Shown: positions 2,965 to 37,872 of the stretch, piece after piece
Layout: each line of letters starts with the position of its first letter
Position numbering within the stretch: the first letter of the stretch is position 1
Source of the DNA: Pseudomonadota bacterium
GTDB taxonomy: Bacteria; Pseudomonadota; Gammaproteobacteria; Burkholderiales; JABEVD01
Assembly (NCBI GenBank): GCA_021802545.1
Contig: JAJZRS010000011.1
Location: 1 to 64,000, forward strand
Length of the DNA: 64,000 nucleotides
Direction of reading: 5' to 3'
Translations under genes and position numbers: made by a program
The notes under the pieces: model-generated
Databases searched by the model: none
Seen by the model: the letters and a program-made list of their open reading frames with translations, nothing else
Told to the model about the DNA's origin: nothing

Positions 2965-3398
2965 CAAGACAAACCCTTAAACCGGTTAGTAGGGCGCGAA
3001 TGGAGAGTGTCGCCTGCATGATGGAAGTGCCCGCGATCGATCTCCGGAGCATGCAGCCTTCAGGACGCTCCGTTTGCAGATATGCCGTGAAACTTGGGTA
3101 ACTACGTTTGACGACAGAGGTCGGCATTTTCCTTCTCAACCGCCAGAATTCGTGCCATATGTGACTTTGCAGAATTGGAAGGATTGGGCGGCTCCGTGCC
3201 AAGAGCGGCCATTCATTGTGTTTATAGCGCTGTCGATCTAATGACTGCTCAATTCTGAAACCCGCCATTTCTCCTATGCGTACAATTCGACATTGTAGAC
3301 ATGCAAGCATCTTTTGCCTCGGTCAGCAAAACGGCTCAGTGGTAACTCATAGATCCGTATTGCAAAAAGGAAGCATGATGTAGTGCTTGCGCATTCCG
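2965..3398. other. Gene-free stretch before the B12 riboswitch
   Basis: No reading frame here looks coding. The stretch from 3110 to 3260, containing GCCAAGAGCGGCCATTCATT, resembles non-coding or decayed sequence often left beside mobile elements, but I could not identify a parent. It probably separates accessory DNA from the B12 unit. Confidence 0.4.
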
Positions 3399-3407
3399 TG
3401 GTAGAAT
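3399..3407 (+). promoter_or_regulatory. Candidate extended -10 promoter of the B12 unit
   Basis: TGGTAGAAT fits an extended -10 element (TGnTAGAAT). It lies about 10 bases upstream of the first conserved riboswitch bases, where a start site would be expected. There is no good -35 match. Confidence 0.45.
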
Positions 3408-3416
3408 TCGCAACGC

Positions 3417-3580
3417 TTTGAGGTGCTTTGTCTATCATCAGACAAGTTAAACGGGAAGCAGGTGGAATGCCTGCGCTGCCCCCGCAACGGTAAGCAAGTG
3501 CGGCCTCGCCATTATGCCACTGTGTGAAAACATGGGAAGGCGGCGAAGCAAGTCTTGCGAGCCCGGATACCGGCCTCGAT
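3417..3580 (+). ncRNA. Cobalamin (B12) riboswitch
   Basis: The conserved blocks appear in order: TGAGGTGCTTTG at the 5' end, GTTAAACGGGAAGCAGGTG, the B12 box neighbourhood GCCTGCGCTGCCCCCGCAAC, CCACTGT, GGGAAGGCGG, and GAGCCCGGATACCGGCC. This aptamer binds adenosylcobalamin and shuts off expression when B12 is plentiful. It sits about 130 bases upstream of btuB and probably controls btuB and btuM, perhaps the whole cob run. Confidence 0.96.
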
Positions 3581-3712
3581 GCATAGGACAGGAGATGCTG
3601 CGGGAGGCGCATCGGTAATGCTTTTTGGCGTCACTACTGACCGAATATATCCCGCACATTTCCTGAAAATCAATGTTCCAACGGGGACCCTTGGAATTTT
3701 TCAGGAAAAACA

Positions 3713-16749: not shown

Positions 16750-18999
16750 TTACACTGCCTTTTGCATCAATGCCTGTTGCATATCTTGAGCCGCCAGGAA
16801 GGTCTTTTCGACAGCTTGGCCAGCAGCAATCGTCCTTTGCACAGCCAAATTGAACCCTTCGGTCACGAGTTCGCGCAGGTCCCGTCCTGAGAGCCCTGCA
16901 CTTTGGTTTGCCAACGATTCGATATCCAGTGCGCTATCAACAGGACGATTGGCCAGAAGGTTCATGAAGATCGATTTTCTCTCTTCCAGTGCAGGTAGTG
17001 GGATTTCTATTTTCTGAGCGAATCTCGATAGGATGGCAGGGTCAAGTTGAGATGGAATATTGGTAGCAGCGATTACGAGAACATAGCCGGAATGCGCAGA
17101 AACACCATCGAGCTCTTGCAGAAGCTGCGTTACTGCTTCAGATTGCAACTGGTCGTTATTTCCATCACGGGCTGAAGAAATTGCGTCGATTTCATCAAGA
17201 AATAGAATCGTCGGAGATGATGATCTTGCTGTTTCGAATGTCTGGGCAATTCTTGCTGCGGCATGACCTAGATATTGACCTTTCAAGTCAGCGGTCGTGC
17301 GCGCCATGAAATTGATTTTTGATTCGTTGGCGAGTGTCCGTGCAATTTGTGTTTTGCCCGTTCCTGGTGGCCCATACAGCAATAGCGTTTTAGGGATAGG
17401 GATACCGCTGGCATGCAATGATTCCGATTTTCGTATCATTTCCACCATGGCTTTAAGGCGCTCCTTTATGGTACCGGGCAATACCAAAGTTCCCCAGGAT
17501 GCATCAGAAGCCACAGTGGTTGATGATTTAACACGTGTTTTATCAAGCGCCTTGTGGAAATGCGACAATTCCGGCTGCTTTGGGGCGGCCATTCGTATCG
17601 CTTGTTGCATGGCGTTTCGTATCTCGCGGCCGCTCAGCCCTCCAAGCGATTGAATAATCTCATCTGGTATGGCAACACCTAGACCCACATCATGAGCGAT
17701 TGTCATAACAAGTTTTTCTTTGTCATCAATGCCGACGGGATTGAGTTCAATGACATCAGCAAACCTGCTCATGATTGCATCATCCAGAAGTTCCGCGCGA
17801 TTGGTTGCGCCGATTACAAGAACTTGAGAGCTGCTGCCTATGCCATCCCATTCGGTCAGGAATGTCTGGACAGCTTCGTTGACAAACGAATCACCCTGAT
17901 CCCCGCCTCTCTTTGAGAAAATCGACTCGCATTCATCAATGAAAATCACAGAAGGGACGTTTGCACGAGCCTCTTCCCACAATTTCTTGACGTTTGCCGC
18001 AGTTCCTCCGATGACGTCGCTCTTAATATGAGCGACAGAGAGCTTGATGAAATGAGCTCCCGAGGAATCTCCAAATATCTTTGCTGTAAGAGATTTCCCT
18101 GTACCTGGAGGCCCCTTCAGCAATATTCCCTTCGGTGCGGCAGAATCTTGGTAAACAAACAGCAGTTCCGCTCGTAGGAGATTTTCCAAGGTTTCGAGAT
18201 CCAAGACCACTTTCTCCCACGCTGATTTAAGCGGCGCCAACTCGAGGGATGGGTGGCTACTGTCCTGAGCATCCTCGAATTGCTGAAAGAGATGGAACGC
18301 CATGCCATCTTGATTGATCATTTCCTTGATGCCACTGCCGACAACAGAGTCCTTCAGTGATAACTTTTGCTTGCCATCGAAGGTAAACAGCTGGATTCCG
18401 GATGAGTCGATGGACAGGAATCCGTACAATACTTCGCCCTTGAAAATCCCAATACCATATCCACTATCTGGGATACGCACTGTGTTCTCAGCATAACTGA
18501 GCAATTGAGGCCCGGTGAATCCATTTTTTGGATTGTGGTAGAGCACAACAAACGACAACGGATATTCAGTATTGTCAGCAACTTCGTGAAACCGCATCAG
18601 ACGGACAACAATCGTTTTCTGAAGCTGCCTGATGTTTATAGCTGTCGATAGCTTATATGCCAGGACACCCGCCGCAATTGCAAGGATGAAACCAAAGGTG
18701 CTGCCAATAAGAATGCCGATAATTATCCAGGTAAATATGAATCCCAAAAATGCACTGACATAGGGTGGAATGAATGGAAGCGCTTCCGTATTTCGGCATA
18801 GCCTTTCGAGACCGCTTTCTAACTCCTTCCAGTTAATTAGCTTTTTCAGGGCGCAGTCTGCATTGATGGTGAACTGGCGAGCCCAGGCGTAGTTTTCGTT
18901 CAACTTCCTTTTCTCTGCTTCGAATTGGCCATGAGCCCGTTCTTTCAATGCATTCTGAAGAGCGCCAATTCTATCCCAAACGATGTCTTCTTTATCCAC
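16750..18999 (-). CDS. Membrane-anchored tandem AAA+ ATPase
   Basis: The 749-residue protein has a coiled N-terminal region, two membrane segments at about 80-118, a roughly 150-residue middle region, and two classical AAA modules. Module 1: Walker A GPPGTGKS at 296-303 and Walker B VIFIDECE at 351-358. Module 2: Walker A GPPGTGKT at 543-550 and ILFLDEID at 598-605. Both keep SRF arginine-finger motifs. The pattern is Cdc48/VCP-like, but the membrane anchor is unusual and there is no FtsH-type HExxH protease site. It probably remodels or extracts proteins at the membrane. Function is not known; a defence role is a guess from context. Confidence 0.85.
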   Translation of the reverse strand: MDKEDIVWDRIGALQNALKERAHGQFEAEKRKLNENYAWARQFTINADCALKKLINWKELESGLERLCRNTEALPFIPPYVSAFLGFIFTWIIIGILIGSTFGFILAIAAGVLAYKLSTAINIRQLQKTIVVRLMRFHEVADNTEYPLSFVVLYHNPKNGFTGPQLLSYAENTVRIPDSGYGIGIFKGEVLYGFLSIDSSGIQLFTFDGKQKLSLKDSVVGSGIKEMINQDGMAFHLFQQFEDAQDSSHPSLELAPLKSAWEKVVLDLETLENLLRAELLFVYQDSAAPKGILLKGPPGTGKSLTAKIFGDSSGAHFIKLSVAHIKSDVIGGTAANVKKLWEEARANVPSVIFIDECESIFSKRGGDQGDSFVNEAVQTFLTEWDGIGSSSQVLVIGATNRAELLDDAIMSRFADVIELNPVGIDDKEKLVMTIAHDVGLGVAIPDEIIQSLGGLSGREIRNAMQQAIRMAAPKQPELSHFHKALDKTRVKSSTTVASDASWGTLVLPGTIKERLKAMVEMIRKSESLHASGIPIPKTLLLYGPPGTGKTQIARTLANESKINFMARTTADLKGQYLGHAAARIAQTFETARSSSPTILFLDEIDAISSARDGNNDQLQSEAVTQLLQELDGVSAHSGYVLVIAATNIPSQLDPAILSRFAQKIEIPLPALEERKSIFMNLLANRPVDSALDIESLANQSAGLSGRDLRELVTEGFNLAVQRTIAAGQAVEKTFLAAQDMQQALMQKAV

Positions 19000-19128
19000 G
19001 AGATTCCTCGATATAGGCTAGCTGCAAGAAATTACCTAATGATTCGCAGTCGGGATATTTTGCCCAATATATTGTGAAGACGCAATAAGATCCTAACCGT
19101 ATCTTCTCCCTTATAAAGGGAGGGGTTG

Positions 19129-19371
19129 GTGGAGCCTGAGATTGCATTAGGGATCGTCTTAAAATCTTTGCGAAAGCAACGGAAGCTTTCTCAGGAGAAA
19201 TTAGCGCATGAAGCCGGGATTGAGAGGAATTACGTTTCCTTGCTTGAACTGGGGCGCAGCAGTGCGAGCATCAAGATGCTTTTCAAGATTGCCGTAGTTC
19301 TAAATATCAGTGTTTCTGAGCTAATCTACCAAGTCGAGAGCCTGCTCAAAGACAATACTGACAACGCATAA
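19129..19371 (+). CDS. XRE-family HTH regulator
   Basis: An 80-residue single-domain protein: LRKQRKLSQEKLAHEAGIER followed by NYVSLLELGRSSASIKMLFKIA, a standard Cro/CI helix-turn-helix, and a short tail VSELIYQVESLL. I chose GTG 19129, 5 bases after GGGAGG; TTG 19126 is possible. It is divergent from the AAA+ ATPase with 129 bases between, so it is the natural candidate to regulate that gene. Confidence 0.85.
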   Translation: MEPEIALGIVLKSLRKQRKLSQEKLAHEAGIERNYVSLLELGRSSASIKMLFKIAVVLNISVSELIYQVESLLKDNTDNA

Positions 19372-19479: not shown

Positions 19480-20850
19480 GATTCCAAGGGGTTGACTTTC
19501 GATTTTGGCAACCCCATGATGGATACATCGCCACGGGTTGCCACCCCGATCACAAAACATCGTGTAAGGGGCTGCCACCCCTCGACGCGATGACACACAT
19601 GAGCCGGACGGCTCGACTTACGATTGCCAATCGTAAGAGACTGCGGAAGCCGCATGTTCGTAATGGAACTGGTGCGGCATGCAACGAAGCGCTGTGGTTA
19701 TTCCGCTTCGACTTTAATCCCTAGAAATACGAATATTGGGCGACACGGAAAGGGCCATCTGGAGGATTCGCGAAGTAATTGCGAGAAACCAGAATGGTTC
19801 GTCAGCATGGGATCGGAAGAGGGAAACATTCCTCGTCAATACCGACCAGGGGGAGCGGATGACCGTTCAACCTGTGACCCACACCGGCACTTCTGAGCCA
19901 ATGGGAAACCATTGGAGGGTTGATGAGCGAGAGTGGATTCAGCCGGCACCTTGTGGCGCAAGCCATGGGGGTCGTTGATAGCTCCGGTGTAACGAAACAA
20001 AGGCGTCCCGGCTGTGTTTACAGACCGATGCGATGCGCTGGGTGACATGATGCCTGTATCCGTCCTCAGGACGGACAAGCGAGTGGTGATGAAGATTGGA
20101 GGAAGTAAGCGAGCCGTTTTGGAATCTTGGGCCGCCGAAAGCCTGACCGCCCGTACCGGGCAGTGGGTGAGCGGGGAGACCCCGTAGAATATCTTCTAAT
20201 CTGAGCCAGCAGGCTGGTGTTATGACTATGCTGACTAACGTGGGAAGCGCTAAGGCTGAATGAAATCGGGTGGCACCGATTAGGCTATGCGTGGGAGACC
20301 AGGCAAGTATGCGCGCCAGGACAAAGTATCCTTGCGTGTCAGGAAGACTCAAAAGGCAAACTCGCTGATTGTCTGATGAAAAAAAGCCTGGAGCAGTCGA
20401 AAATGTGTGGTGAGATTACCTGGTACGGATGCGTCGAAGCTCAGGCAGGGGTGGCACCCTGTCTGCGTCCGCTTGGCGGCGGACTGATGACGAAAGGCGA
20501 TGGAAAGCGTTGCCCTGAAACTTGGGTGACAATTTTTAACGAACTGCCAACCTGGGCCAACATGGGCAGGTAGCCGCACCGATGGCAAGGTGACCGTTTG
20601 TCAAAGGGGAAGGCTGATCGTCCGATGGTTTAATCGGAATAAACGGCGGGACAAAGTCCGAACCAGAACATCCCGCGTCAGTTGAAGCCTAAGGGACTAT
20701 TCGGAGTCCGATGGCAGGCGACCCATTGTCGTCATGAGACGGGAAACCGTTTGTTGTAGGAATGAAGCCCTAACGGGTGGAGTTTCAGCCGCATGTTACT
20801 TTGCGGTAGTAGCACCAAACCCCGCCGATTTTCGGCGGGGTTTTCTTCTT
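19480..20850 (+). ncRNA. Candidate large structured non-coding RNA
   Basis: About 1.35 kb has no credible gene on either strand but is packed with exact hairpins. Examples are GGGGTTG/CAACCCC (19488-19515), CTTACGATT/AATCGTAAG (19618-19638), CGAAGCG/CGCTTCG (19685-19710), TCCGTCC/GGACGGA (20059-20075), GCCCG/CGGGC (20149-20161), CGGGG/CCCCG (20172-20184), ATCGG/CCGAT (20265-20280) and GTCCGC/GCGGAC (20467-20484). It ends in a strong rightward terminator, which sets the strand. Size, mobile context and nearby tRNA recall giant RNAs such as GOLLD. A group II intron relic is the alternative, but I see no domain V and no reverse transcriptase. The 5' end is uncertain. Confidence 0.6.
20817..20850 (+). 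terminator. Rho-independent terminator of the large RNA
   Basis: CCCCGCCGA and TCGGCGGGG form a 9-bp perfect stem with a TTT loop, followed by TTTTCTTCTT. An AAA run precedes the stem, so the leftward gene at 20887 could also end here. Confidence 0.92.
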
Positions 20851-20886: not shown

Positions 20887-21513
20887 TTATAATCTTGAAG
20901 ACTTCTTTTTCACATACTCTGCCGCATCTTCCAACGGTAGGATGTCCCAGTATAGCCACGCATCGTCAATGGAACTGTAGTCAAAACCCACACACACCCG
21001 CAGACCTGCAGGGTTAATCATTCCCCCACCTGTGCGCTCATGTGCAGGAACCAGTTTTTCTGCAAGCATGATCATCAGACCAACCAGATCTGCATCGGTC
21101 ATCCCTTGACCAAGCAAAATCCTTGCGCCTTTTTCCAGGAATTTAAGGGCGCTTCTTCGGTCGGCACTCCTTTTCTTCAGCATTGTGCTTGAAAGTTCGG
21201 TCAACATCTGCCGCTCATCTTTTGAATACAGGTCTTCGTTCCATTTCAGCACATACCTAACGAGGGGTCCCTCCCATCCTCGCTGACGGGCAATTCGTGC
21301 CAGCGCTATCTGGCGATCTTCTCCCATGACCTTTTTTTTACCAGCTAGATATTGCCGAACCAGATCCTCAGACAGAACGATTTCGGGTTGCAATGCCTCG
21401 GCGAGATCGCCAGCCGTCAATTGACTCGCCTGCTTGATTTCCCTCATTAAAGAAGAAGTGCGCAACAGAGCGTCTCTTTTGTCATCGTTTAAATACTTCT
21501 TTTTACGTCCCAC
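20887..21513 (-). CDS. Unknown protein with possible N-terminal HTH
   Basis: The 208-residue protein opens MGRKKKYLNDDKRDALL and has an N-terminal region (LMREIKQASQLTAGDLAEAL, then LVRQYLAGKKKVMGEDRQIA) that resembles an HTH used by phage or plasmid regulators. The rest is helical and charged with no known motif. It is divergent from the gene at 21631, with 117 bases between. Recombinase-side accessory or regulatory roles are possible. Confidence 0.55.
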   Translation of the reverse strand: MGRKKKYLNDDKRDALLRTSSLMREIKQASQLTAGDLAEALQPEIVLSEDLVRQYLAGKKKVMGEDRQIALARIARQRGWEGPLVRYVLKWNEDLYSKDERQMLTELSSTMLKKRSADRRSALKFLEKGARILLGQGMTDADLVGLMIMLAEKLVPAHERTGGGMINPAGLRVCVGFDYSSIDDAWLYWDILPLEDAAEYVKKKSSRL

Positions 21514-21630: not shown

Positions 21631-22416
21631 ATGAAAACTCCTTTGATTTTTACTTCCCGATCACTCCTGATGCAGCGATTGTGCGATGGCGTCATACAGG
21701 GGTATACCCATTGGGTGGCGGGGTCAGTGGATATTGGTCGCTGCCAGAAACTGGTCAAAAAATTCGATCTTACCTACCAAGTTTTGGCCGACCGCAATCT
21801 TCGCGTCAACCGCAAGCGCGCCGAGATTGGGAATGCACGCCTGTATCTGTGGCACACAAACGGGACAATCCGGTGGTGGTTGTTGGTAACGGCACCTGAA
21901 AAAGGCGAGCATGCCGCGCACTCCATAGAAAAGCTCAAGAATGCGTTAGAGAAGAGCGGGCGGATCGAAATCGACGGCTTCGAACTTGTCAGGTTTCCGA
22001 AAAAAAAGGGAGGTACCACAAAGCAAAAAAGTAGTGAGACGGGCGCCAAGCAAAACAATAGCACGGTCAAACCAAAACAGAAAAATGCATCATCAGAAAC
22101 CAAGTGGACTTGGCGAATGAACGAAAGCAAATACCAGAACTGGCGGGATTCGATTATAGACACCGTCCGGAAGGGTTCCTCGAACAACATGCACCAGATG
22201 CTCTACCAACTCTGGTCGTCCCCTGGCTTTGCTGGCATCCGTAGTCAGGTTGGCAAGCTTGCTGCGCTCTACCGAGCCGAAGTGCAGCGTTCATCCAGGA
22301 AGGACGCTCCGATGCCGCCAAAACGTCTTCCGTACGTTCGTCGGCTCCGTGACGATGGGGTCAGTGTTGCCCAACTCTTGAAAAAGGCCACTTGTTCAGA
22401 GTCCCAACAAAGCTGA
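21631..22416 (+). CDS. Unknown protein of the recombinase cluster
   Basis: A 261-residue frame. The N-terminal part (to about residue 125) looks folded and rich in aromatics (NARLYLWHTNGTIRWWLLVT). A low-complexity linker rich in K, Q, S, N and T follows (about 126-160). The C-terminal part is basic (YQNWRDSIIDTVRKG, MPPKRLPYVRRLRDDGVSV). I do not recognise a family. The same-strand order with the small gene at 22423 and the serine recombinase suggests an element-encoded accessory protein. Confidence 0.55.
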   Translation: MKTPLIFTSRSLLMQRLCDGVIQGYTHWVAGSVDIGRCQKLVKKFDLTYQVLADRNLRVNRKRAEIGNARLYLWHTNGTIRWWLLVTAPEKGEHAAHSIEKLKNALEKSGRIEIDGFELVRFPKKKGGTTKQKSSETGAKQNNSTVKPKQKNASSETKWTWRMNESKYQNWRDSIIDTVRKGSSNNMHQMLYQLWSSPGFAGIRSQVGKLAALYRAEVQRSSRKDAPMPPKRLPYVRRLRDDGVSVAQLLKKATCSESQQS

Positions 22417-22646: not shown

Positions 22647-24293
22647 ATGCAGGTTGCTCTATATGCACGAGTGTCCACCGTCAGACAAGCTGAGAACGAA
22701 CTTTCGATTCCAGACCAGTTGAGGCAGATGCAGGAATGGGCGAAGGTACAAGGGCATATCGTCGTTGCTGAATATATCGAACCAGGCGCATCCGCTACGG
22801 ACGACAAGCGGCCGATCTTCCAGCAAATGATGGGGGAGGCTCTTCAAAAACATCCTCCGTTCGAAGCAATCATCGTGCATAGTCATTCCCGCTTCTTTCG
22901 CGACGGGATCGAGGCCGGAGTGCATGAACGTAAGCTCAAGCGCAACGGCGTGAAACTATTCTCCATCACCCAGCCTACTTCCGATGATGCAAGCGGCGAA
23001 CTGGTCCGCAATATCATCAGAATGTTCGATGGCTACCAATCTCAGGAGAACGCCAAGCATACATCCCGCGCCATGAAGGAAAATGCGCGGCAGGGTTTTT
23101 TTAATGGTTCCCTGGCGCCGTTTGGTTATATGGCAATCAGCACTGACGTGTCTGGAAGCCGGGGCCGGAAGAAAAAGAAACTCGCCATCAACGAAGCAGA
23201 GGCTGGGGTCGTGAAGCTGATCTACGATCTGTATCTTCATGGATATAATGGACGCCCCATGGGCGGCAAGGAAATCGCCAGGCATCTGACCGAGAAGGGG
23301 CTATTGATGCGCGGCAAGCCTTGGCGCATGCAGAAAATCCATGACGTTCTGACTGACCCCATGTACATGGGAGAATACTTCTTCAACGTCCGGGATTCTA
23401 GGGCGGGACAGGTTAGGCCGCCCGAGGAGTGGGTCAAGACTGAGATTCCCGCAATTATCGATGCGGCAAAATTCGAGCAAGTCCGGATCAAGCGCGAGTC
23501 ACGTTCGCCCAGCCGCCTGCCCCCTCGTCGGGTATCCTCCCCTGTTCTGTTGAGTGGTTTGCTGAAATGCGGTGTCTGTGGAGCAGGAATGACGCTATCC
23601 ACCGGGAAAGGCGGCCGCTACCGGTATTACAAATGCACCAATCGCCGCAACAAGGGTAATCATGCATGTTCCAGTTCCAATATTCCCATGGACAAGCTGG
23701 ATGAACTGGTCATTGCCAGCCTGGTGGAAAAGATACTGGCTTCAGATCGATTGCATGCCATGATGGCCGAACTTCGCAAACGCATCCGCGATTCAAAGGA
23801 TAACAAGCAGGAACGCATCAATGAATTGAACCGTCAGCTCAAGCAGCTTGATGAGCGCCAACAGCGTTTGCTTGATGCGATCGAGACGGGGATCATCGAA
23901 TTGGACGAAACCACCCAGAAAAGAGCCCAAACCCTCAAGGCATCACGTGAAGCCTTGCTGATCGAAAGGGCTGGCGTGGTTCGGGAACAATCCATGCCCG
24001 AGGTAGAGTATCTGAAGCCGTCTCAGGTTGAAGTGTTCGGGAAAGCGCTTCGCAAGAAACTGATGTCGAATGACTCAACTCTGGCCAAAAGCTACCTGAA
24101 CATCCTTGTGGATGAAATCAGGATAGAGGACAAGCAGGCCACCATACGAGGCAGCTTTGATGCGCTTGCGGCGACCATGCATCAAATAAAAATGGGCACC
24201 GATCAAGTGCCCACTTTTATCCATGACTGGCGCGCCCGACAGGAGTCGAACCTGTGGCCTCTGGCTTCGGAAACCAGCGCTCTATCCAACTGA
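22647..24293 (+). CDS. Large serine recombinase/integrase
   Basis: The 548-residue protein has an N-terminal resolvase domain with catalytic Ser10 (ALYARVSTVRQAE) and SRFFRDGIEAG, then the 'recombinase' domain (RAMKENARQGFFNGSLAPFG), a zinc ribbon (KCGVCGAGM with KCTNRRNKGNHAC) and a long coiled coil. Such enzymes integrate and excise phages and islands at short att sites. The last 21 codons, starting at Trp, lie antisense inside tRNA-Arg, so the stop codon is supplied by the tRNA. That implies the enzyme gene abuts its own attachment site. Confidence 0.93.
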   Translation: MQVALYARVSTVRQAENELSIPDQLRQMQEWAKVQGHIVVAEYIEPGASATDDKRPIFQQMMGEALQKHPPFEAIIVHSHSRFFRDGIEAGVHERKLKRNGVKLFSITQPTSDDASGELVRNIIRMFDGYQSQENAKHTSRAMKENARQGFFNGSLAPFGYMAISTDVSGSRGRKKKKLAINEAEAGVVKLIYDLYLHGYNGRPMGGKEIARHLTEKGLLMRGKPWRMQKIHDVLTDPMYMGEYFFNVRDSRAGQVRPPEEWVKTEIPAIIDAAKFEQVRIKRESRSPSRLPPRRVSSPVLLSGLLKCGVCGAGMTLSTGKGGRYRYYKCTNRRNKGNHACSSSNIPMDKLDELVIASLVEKILASDRLHAMMAELRKRIRDSKDNKQERINELNRQLKQLDERQQRLLDAIETGIIELDETTQKRAQTLKASREALLIERAGVVREQSMPEVEYLKPSQVEVFGKALRKKLMSNDSTLAKSYLNILVDEIRIEDKQATIRGSFDALAATMHQIKMGTDQVPTFIHDWRARQESNLWPLASETSALSN

Positions 24294-24304
24294 GCTACGG
24301 GCGC
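24228..24304 (-). tRNA. tRNA-Arg, anticodon CCG
   Basis: The reverse strand reads GCGCCCGTAGCTCAGTTGG at the 5' end, has anticodon stem CTGGT/GCCAG with loop TTCCGAA (anticodon CCG, decoding CGG), GGTTCGACTCC in the T arm, and acceptor CGGGCGC-G with an encoded CCA. It is complete at 77 bases. Its 3' two-thirds is also the coding tail of the recombinase on the other strand. Confidence 0.96.
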
Positions 24305-24368: not shown

Positions 24369-24413
<45 letters not shown>

Positions 24414-37573: not shown

Positions 37574-37672
37574 TCCCGAGAGCCATTCAACCCGGTTAGT
37601 CGCTTTTTTTCTGGATTAGTTTCAGAGTTGCAAGCAGTGAGGCGCTCGGGTATAGTGCACTCAGCCGTACAA

Positions 37673-37840
37673 TGCATCAGCAGGAGAGTGTGCAAAGCAG
37701 CACCGCCGAAGGCGCAACCGCCCGGAATCGCTCAGGCCGAAGAACCGCTGAAAGCAGGCTATTCTGGAGAGCGCTGATTATTCAGCCACCGAAGGGGCAC
37801 GCAGGCATCCTGCAATCTCTCAGGTATAAGGGACAGAAGG
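37673..37840 (+). ncRNA. Tandem glycine riboswitch
   Basis: Two glycine aptamers stand in series. The first has CAGGAGAGTG, GCCGAAGGCGCAACC and GCTCAGG; the second has CTGGAGAGC, CACCGAAGGGGCACGC and CTCTCAGGTATAAGGGACAGA, all canonical blocks. Glycine binding turns on glycine cleavage genes, and gcvT begins 45 bases downstream. Confidence 0.95.
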
Positions 37841-37872
37841 GTGAAGCTCGTATGAGCTTCGCCTTTTTCATT
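37841..37872 (+). terminator. Riboswitch expression-platform terminator
   Basis: GGTGAAGCTC and GAGCTTCGCC form a 10-bp stem (one G-U pair) around GTAT, followed by TTTTTC. It lies between the second glycine aptamer and gcvT, where glycine binding would prevent termination. Confidence 0.85.

Follow-up and report, generated by a model that had tools for sequence, protein, structure and literature searches.

At 19.6 to 20.85 kb, the 64,000-nucleotide stretch of DNA analyzed here (the window) carries the gene for a large RNA that codes for no protein, folds strongly, and is closed by a terminator. This RNA is almost certainly a group II ribozyme of the circularly permuted (CP), or "T-large", kind, with the domain order D5-D6-D1-D2-D3-D4. 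CP group II ribozymes were described in 2021 by Roth, Weinberg, Vanderschuren, Murdock, and Breaker (PMC8637638), and the RNA is therefore not the undescribed class for which an earlier note on this DNA had seen it as a candidate. Based on gene order in related plasmids, we consider it probable (roughly 0.6) that the ribozyme back-splices and, together with the protein AcpG, forms a DNA-processing module for transfer that takes the place of a relaxase and an oriT. The features of the RNA gene and its surroundings are as follows.

16750-18999: possible AAA protein
19126..19371, + strand: XRE/HTH_3 regulator upstream of the RNA
19485-19600: additional hairpins
About 19605-20490: ribozyme core
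19605..19641, + strand: 5' hairpins before D5, probably P1/P2 of the CP group II model, the precise correspondence being inferred
19648..19680, + strand: domain 5, with AGC triad (19648-19650), loop GTAATG (19660-19665), and bulge; covariation
19686..19718, + strand: domain 6, ending at T19718 of the NU motif, which the 3' splice site follows; the branch point is the bulged A19711
19719..19737, + strand: predicted excised 19-nt RNA circle (CCCTAGAAATACGAATATT), between NU and GGGCG
19738..20386, + strand: 5' splice site GGGCG (19738-19742) and D1-D3
20387..20816, + strand: D4 and the variable, less conserved 3' part of the transcript, up to the terminator
20817..20850, + strand: intrinsic terminator
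20887..21513, - strand: 208-aa ORF convergent with the RNA, with weak HTH similarity, also in the sister element
21631..22416, + strand: acpG, the partner gene
22647..24293, + strand: large serine recombinase (Resolvase, Recombinase, Zn_ribbon_recom), 3' end overlapping tRNA-Arg
24228-24304: tRNA-Arg

Within 19480-20850 the longest ORFs are 137 aa or less and no protein of an annotated family is encoded, which bears out the earlier note's view that this ∼1.35-kb interval holds no plausible protein. Single-strand folding of 19600-20560 gave -373.8 kcal/mol, compared to -334.6 +/- 6.2 kcal/mol for shuffled sequences (z = -6.37; 0 of 20 shuffles as low), in keeping with the large structured non-coding RNA that had been suggested. 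The rightward terminator is likewise real: a 12-bp stem without mismatch (20817-20843) is followed by a T-rich tail. Near the 5' end, a 10-bp hairpin at 19617-19637 has all of its pairs matched. When the region was searched with Rfam covariance models, no family reached its gathering score, and the weak matches near the 3' end of the RNA covered the terminator hairpin alone. A kinship with giant RNAs of the GOLLD type was not upheld; GOLLD and ROOL resemble this RNA in size and mobile setting but showed no similarity by the Rfam covariance models.

The RNA is identified by the arrangement of its parts. Domain 5, which had been reported as missing, is present at 19648-19680, where the permuted domain order places it ahead of D6 and D1. 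The splice sites have the reversed layout: T19718, in the NU motif that we took from PMC8637638, then a 19-nt linker, then GGGCG at 19738-19742, with published linker or circle lengths ranging from 15 to 86 nt (PMC8637638). After GGGCG, the D1-D3 motifs occur in the expected order. The same motifs stand in the same order in pPNAP05, a published member in which Roth et al. detected the CP RNA transcript (PMC8637638). Direct BLAST between the window and pPNAP05 was weak (E = 0.01); transitively, via Paraburkholderia (pBN5), the two are linked at E = 1e-20.

The earlier note had suggested a homologue search followed by a covariation check, and this revealed compensatory base changes among the homologues. 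In an alignment of D5-D6 from 61 sequences with a hand-written structure, all members containing GGGCGAC because it was required for inclusion, 96.9% of cells were paired, compared to 75.5% after shuffling, and 20 of the 21 pairs showed double-sided changes. Nine of the 10 pairs in D5 had such changes, and D6 contributed 11 covarying pairs on either side of the bulged A. The signal collapsed once the structure was slid by one column, and RNAalifold, unaided, recovered the same D5 and D6 helices. Farther downstream, a helix at 20247-20291 covaried in 11 of 11 predicted pairs. When we sought EBS/IBS pairing by column covariation, no clear helix emerged.

With the published CP group II class the window RNA thus shares domain order, the AGC triad of D5, the bulged A of D6, the GGGCG and NU motifs, the short linker, an adjacent acpG, and a plasmid or mobile setting. 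It differs in being longer than the ∼900-nt average, in its altered D1 motif, in its location on a chromosomal element that encodes a large serine recombinase, and in having acpG downstream on the same strand rather than divergent. Canonical group II introns have the same domains and predicted chemistry but, compared to them, this RNA has a permuted order, no intron-encoded protein, and no exons, and the corresponding Rfam models (RF00029 and the D1-D4 models) remained under threshold. The scanned ORFs near the RNA include no reverse transcriptase, as had been noted before.

The setting is a mobile element, recognizable by a serine recombinase that runs into tRNA-Arg and by a second copy of the module in the genome, so the mobile, tRNA-proximal context that had been described stands. 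Neither a type IV secretion system (T4SS), nor a coupling protein, nor a relaxase was found among the scanned ORFs of the element, and a search for an att repeat at its left boundary yielded none that was convincing. A 41-bp near-perfect direct repeat of the tRNA-Arg 5' half occurs at 24264-24304 and 24369-24409, 105 bp apart; one or several integrations at this tRNA seem to have left these repeats as remnants of attachment sites. Elsewhere, the window holds a cobalamin riboswitch (3404-3592) and a tandem glycine riboswitch (37671-37846).

BLASTN placed relatives of the RNA on plasmids of Paraburkholderia, Pandoraea, Azotobacter, and Halomonas, and further searches added E. coli, Acinetobacter, Deinococcus, Pseudoalteromonas (pMtBL), Thiothrix, Komagataeibacter, and others; in nearly all of these records the matched stretch is unannotated. 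A 27-base conserved motif brought in 65 more stretches from genome contigs and one from viral contigs, the few stretches that lacked the other motifs being set aside. Two pattern scans of 2.9 million viral contigs gave that single match and a phage collection gave none, and we rejected a phage RNA on these grounds. We also rejected a plasmid replication RNA or vegetative origin: on pMtBL the OriR spans 1918-2759 and the RNA lies outside it, at 3122-3466, and Roth et al. (PMC8637638) cite a deletion of the CP RNA copy of pTT8 without loss of replication. In pPO70-4 of Pandoraea, two CP RNA matches are separated by an IS256 element (L005:4314-5579), which apparently splits the RNA near D5/D6.

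The comparison that bears most directly on function concerns the slot beside the coupling-protein gene. In plasmids of Providencia, Klebsiella, Eleftheria, Bermanella, Vibrio, and Pseudomonas, a gene X is followed by 0.86 to 1.8 kb of non-coding DNA and then by a coupling-protein gene on the opposite strand, with VirB11 directly preceding X in four of these six MobC-type plasmids. In all six, X gave matches to the replication-relaxation family MobC that did not reach the curated cut-off (E = 3e-9 to 3e-18), and the Vibrio plasmid was typed MOBC by MOB-suite. Gluconacetobacter has the same order, VirB11 included, but there X is AcpG and the non-coding stretch contains the CP RNA; in Paraburkholderia and Pandoraea, acpG, RNA, and coupling protein likewise follow in order. 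E. coli pLAU-OXA4 and Providencia pYPR25-2 have 16 proteins in common (28 to 66% identity), including the coupling protein and the whole T4SS (34 to 66%), and differ in the X/non-coding module. Both modules sit in one gene slot, adjoining the coupling-protein gene (and VirB11) with non-coding DNA at their side, but AcpG is not homologous to MobC and its neighboring non-coding DNA encodes a ribozyme.

Reciprocal searches gave the same picture. The MobC HMM matched nothing in the CP RNA loci, including the complete pLAU-OXA4 and pBN5; AcpG was absent from the MobC plasmids, as was the full CP motif set from their gaps, where single motifs occur by chance; and in the loci examined the two modules never occurred together. 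The scanned ORFs of pLAU-OXA4 and pBN5 included no Pfam relaxase, and PF03432 was found in none of 12 CP RNA plasmids. Relaxase-negative typing applied to 27 of 28 AcpG plasmid records, compared to 128 of 1,225 plasmids with a related coupling protein, although these counts overstate independent events because many records are near-identical E. coli plasmids, and MOB-suite misses divergent MobC (pYPR25-2 and pTHO-017-3 were typed non-mobilizable). Several CP RNA plasmids do carry a T4SS and coupling protein; VirB11 and TraD families are among the commonest neighbors of the RNA, and a coupling-protein gene adjoins it in 15 of 75 loci. From these gene orders we infer that AcpG and the CP RNA replace a relaxase and oriT on these plasmids. 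Separately, hairpin-rich non-coding stretches of 0.86 to 0.9 kb lie beside divergent MobC genes on two plasmids typed non-mobilizable (L088:2853-3710 and L089:7078-7979) and are likely oriT regions missed by current typing.

Some E. coli plasmids carry the RNA on its own. Seven E. coli genomes contain a 3-kb plasmid that has the RNA but no match to acpG; only one of them also holds the acpG/T4SS plasmid, which occurs in 15 of 5,426 genomes. Presence of the RNA without acpG on 3-kb plasmids is what a cis-acting transfer site would show, a pattern that is suggestive only. A 150-aa gene is common to the 30-kb (L012:6476-6934) and 3-kb (L011:2289-2741) E. coli CP RNA plasmids, and on the MobC plasmid pYPR25-2 a homologue of it adjoins the coupling-protein gene; its product is possibly an accessory transfer factor.

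The product of 21631-22416 fits the description of AcpG given by Roth et al. (PMC8637638). A homologous protein, mostly of 200 to 390 aa and usually encoded divergently from the RNA, is present at nearly every CP RNA locus, some loci having no AcpG match nearby. Searches of Pfam, NCBIfam, PHROG, and PDB returned no significant match to AcpG. AlphaFold2 predictions were confident, with a mean pLDDT of 91.2 for the window protein and 95.4 for a second model, and these predicted folds had no significant match among PDB and viral structures; ferredoxin-like designs and an entry described as SIRV1 ORF119 were rejected as fold relatives, since their matches were not significant. W161 and R204 are invariant and Y49, E100, and E118 near-invariant, and the sequence contains no recognizable nuclease motif.

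How such a module might work can be outlined from the chemistry of its relatives, for which back-splicing has been demonstrated in vitro; Roth et al. saw expression of the CP RNA, but not processing, in vivo (PMC8637638). In the window RNA, A19711 would attack the phosphate that precedes G19738; the 3' end released by this step would then attack the site after T19718. The products would be the 19-nt circle and a branched ribozyme with a free 3'-OH at the end of D6. In group II reverse splicing, DNA is attacked by the 3'-OH of a ribozyme, after which the 5' DNA end carries RNA and the DNA has a free 3'-OH. By analogy, the 3'-OH of D6 may attack a single DNA strand, with exon-binding sequences choosing the site; the DNA would then have a free 3'-OH and a 5' end covalently joined to the RNA, a polarity identical to that of a relaxase nick. 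Given the replacement in the gene slot, the RNA and AcpG (21631-22416) would act as a DNA-processing module in place of relaxase and oriT, with AcpG linking the ribonucleoprotein to the coupling protein of a T4SS supplied in trans and the serine recombinase carrying out excision and integration. Under this model, the window element would be an integrative mobilizable element without a protein relaxase; its transfer role is borrowed from the plasmid relatives, because the window itself has no T4SS or coupling protein. That the CP RNA and AcpG form an RNA-based relaxase, nicking DNA by reverse splicing so as to initiate conjugative transfer and carried on the 5' strand end, we put forward tentatively, as less likely than not.

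The D1 of the window RNA reads AGCTCCGGTGTAA (from 19980) where the highly conserved motif is AGCTCAAGCGTGTAA, with the change of AGCTCAAGC lying at 19985-19988. BLAST-found comparison loci keep the motif with small changes at most; most comparison loci were chosen by a pattern containing it, and its presence there reflects selection. Such departures, at several positions invariant in other members, are what would be expected of a CP group II relic that has decayed in a defective element and lost its function, and the window RNA may be inactive or altered because of the change in D1; yet the sister copy preserves it. That sister element, in the same genome, holds a second copy of the whole module, with an RNA 90% identical to that of the window, and both copies share departures at otherwise near-invariant positions, including AGCTCAAGCGTGTAA to AGCTCCGGTGTAA. 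Between them, 19605-19718 (including D5-D6) is 99.1% identical, the circle 100%, and D1-D3 98.3%, compared to 79% for D4 and the 3' part (20387-20816); acpG stands at 87.5%, the recombinase at 86.3%, and the 208-aa gene at 65.5% (DNA). With the core, the most conserved part of the element, 98 to 99% identical while the genes are at 66 to 88%, we take the ribozyme core to be strongly constrained, although recent gene conversion of the core alone could also produce this identity. The D5-D6 pairs are all retained in the window except two at the D6 tip, and both copies show a compensatory change from C-G to U-A in D5. A relic is on this evidence very improbable.

Two further explanations accept a functional locus. 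AcpG alone might be a new protein relaxase or accessory, with the RNA gene acting as a DNA-level oriT and the RNA product or circle regulating transfer genes or copy number. The gene-slot evidence serves this reading equally, the conserved residues and confident fold of AcpG without a significant PDB match suit it, and the RNA-only 3-kb plasmids fit an oriT in cis. However, conservation at the level of RNA pairing across the catalytic core, with many G-U among the standard pairs, favors an RNA product over a DNA site, and AcpG is missing near some CP RNAs; we consider this explanation unlikely. Plasmid leading regions often hold anti-restriction or defense-type genes, and the ribonucleoprotein could be a plasmid anti-restriction, exclusion, or defense factor that happens to adjoin transfer genes. 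Defense or nucleic-acid disruption was indeed proposed by Roth et al. (PMC8637638). However, RNA and AcpG take the place of MobC and do not accompany it; the RNA is also on plasmids of 3 to 4 kb, and it is nearly absent from the 2.9 million viral contigs and absent from the phage collection, all of which leaves a defense role quite improbable. A transfer module of ribozyme and AcpG is the reading we prefer.

In the open-access literature, the CP group II RNA and AcpG have been without an assigned biological role since their description. What is new here is that AcpG and the ribozyme lie in the slot where related plasmids keep MobC and non-coding DNA, and this replacement makes the role of the CP RNA directly addressable by deletion and mating. 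If our reading is correct, transfer is open to some of the plasmids at present classed as non-mobilizable, and a protein relaxase is not essential for conjugation. Were the more tentative RNA-based relaxase also to hold, it would have displaced protein relaxases in a family of plasmids and integrative elements that extends over the Pseudomonadota, with CP RNA also present on Deinococcus plasmids.
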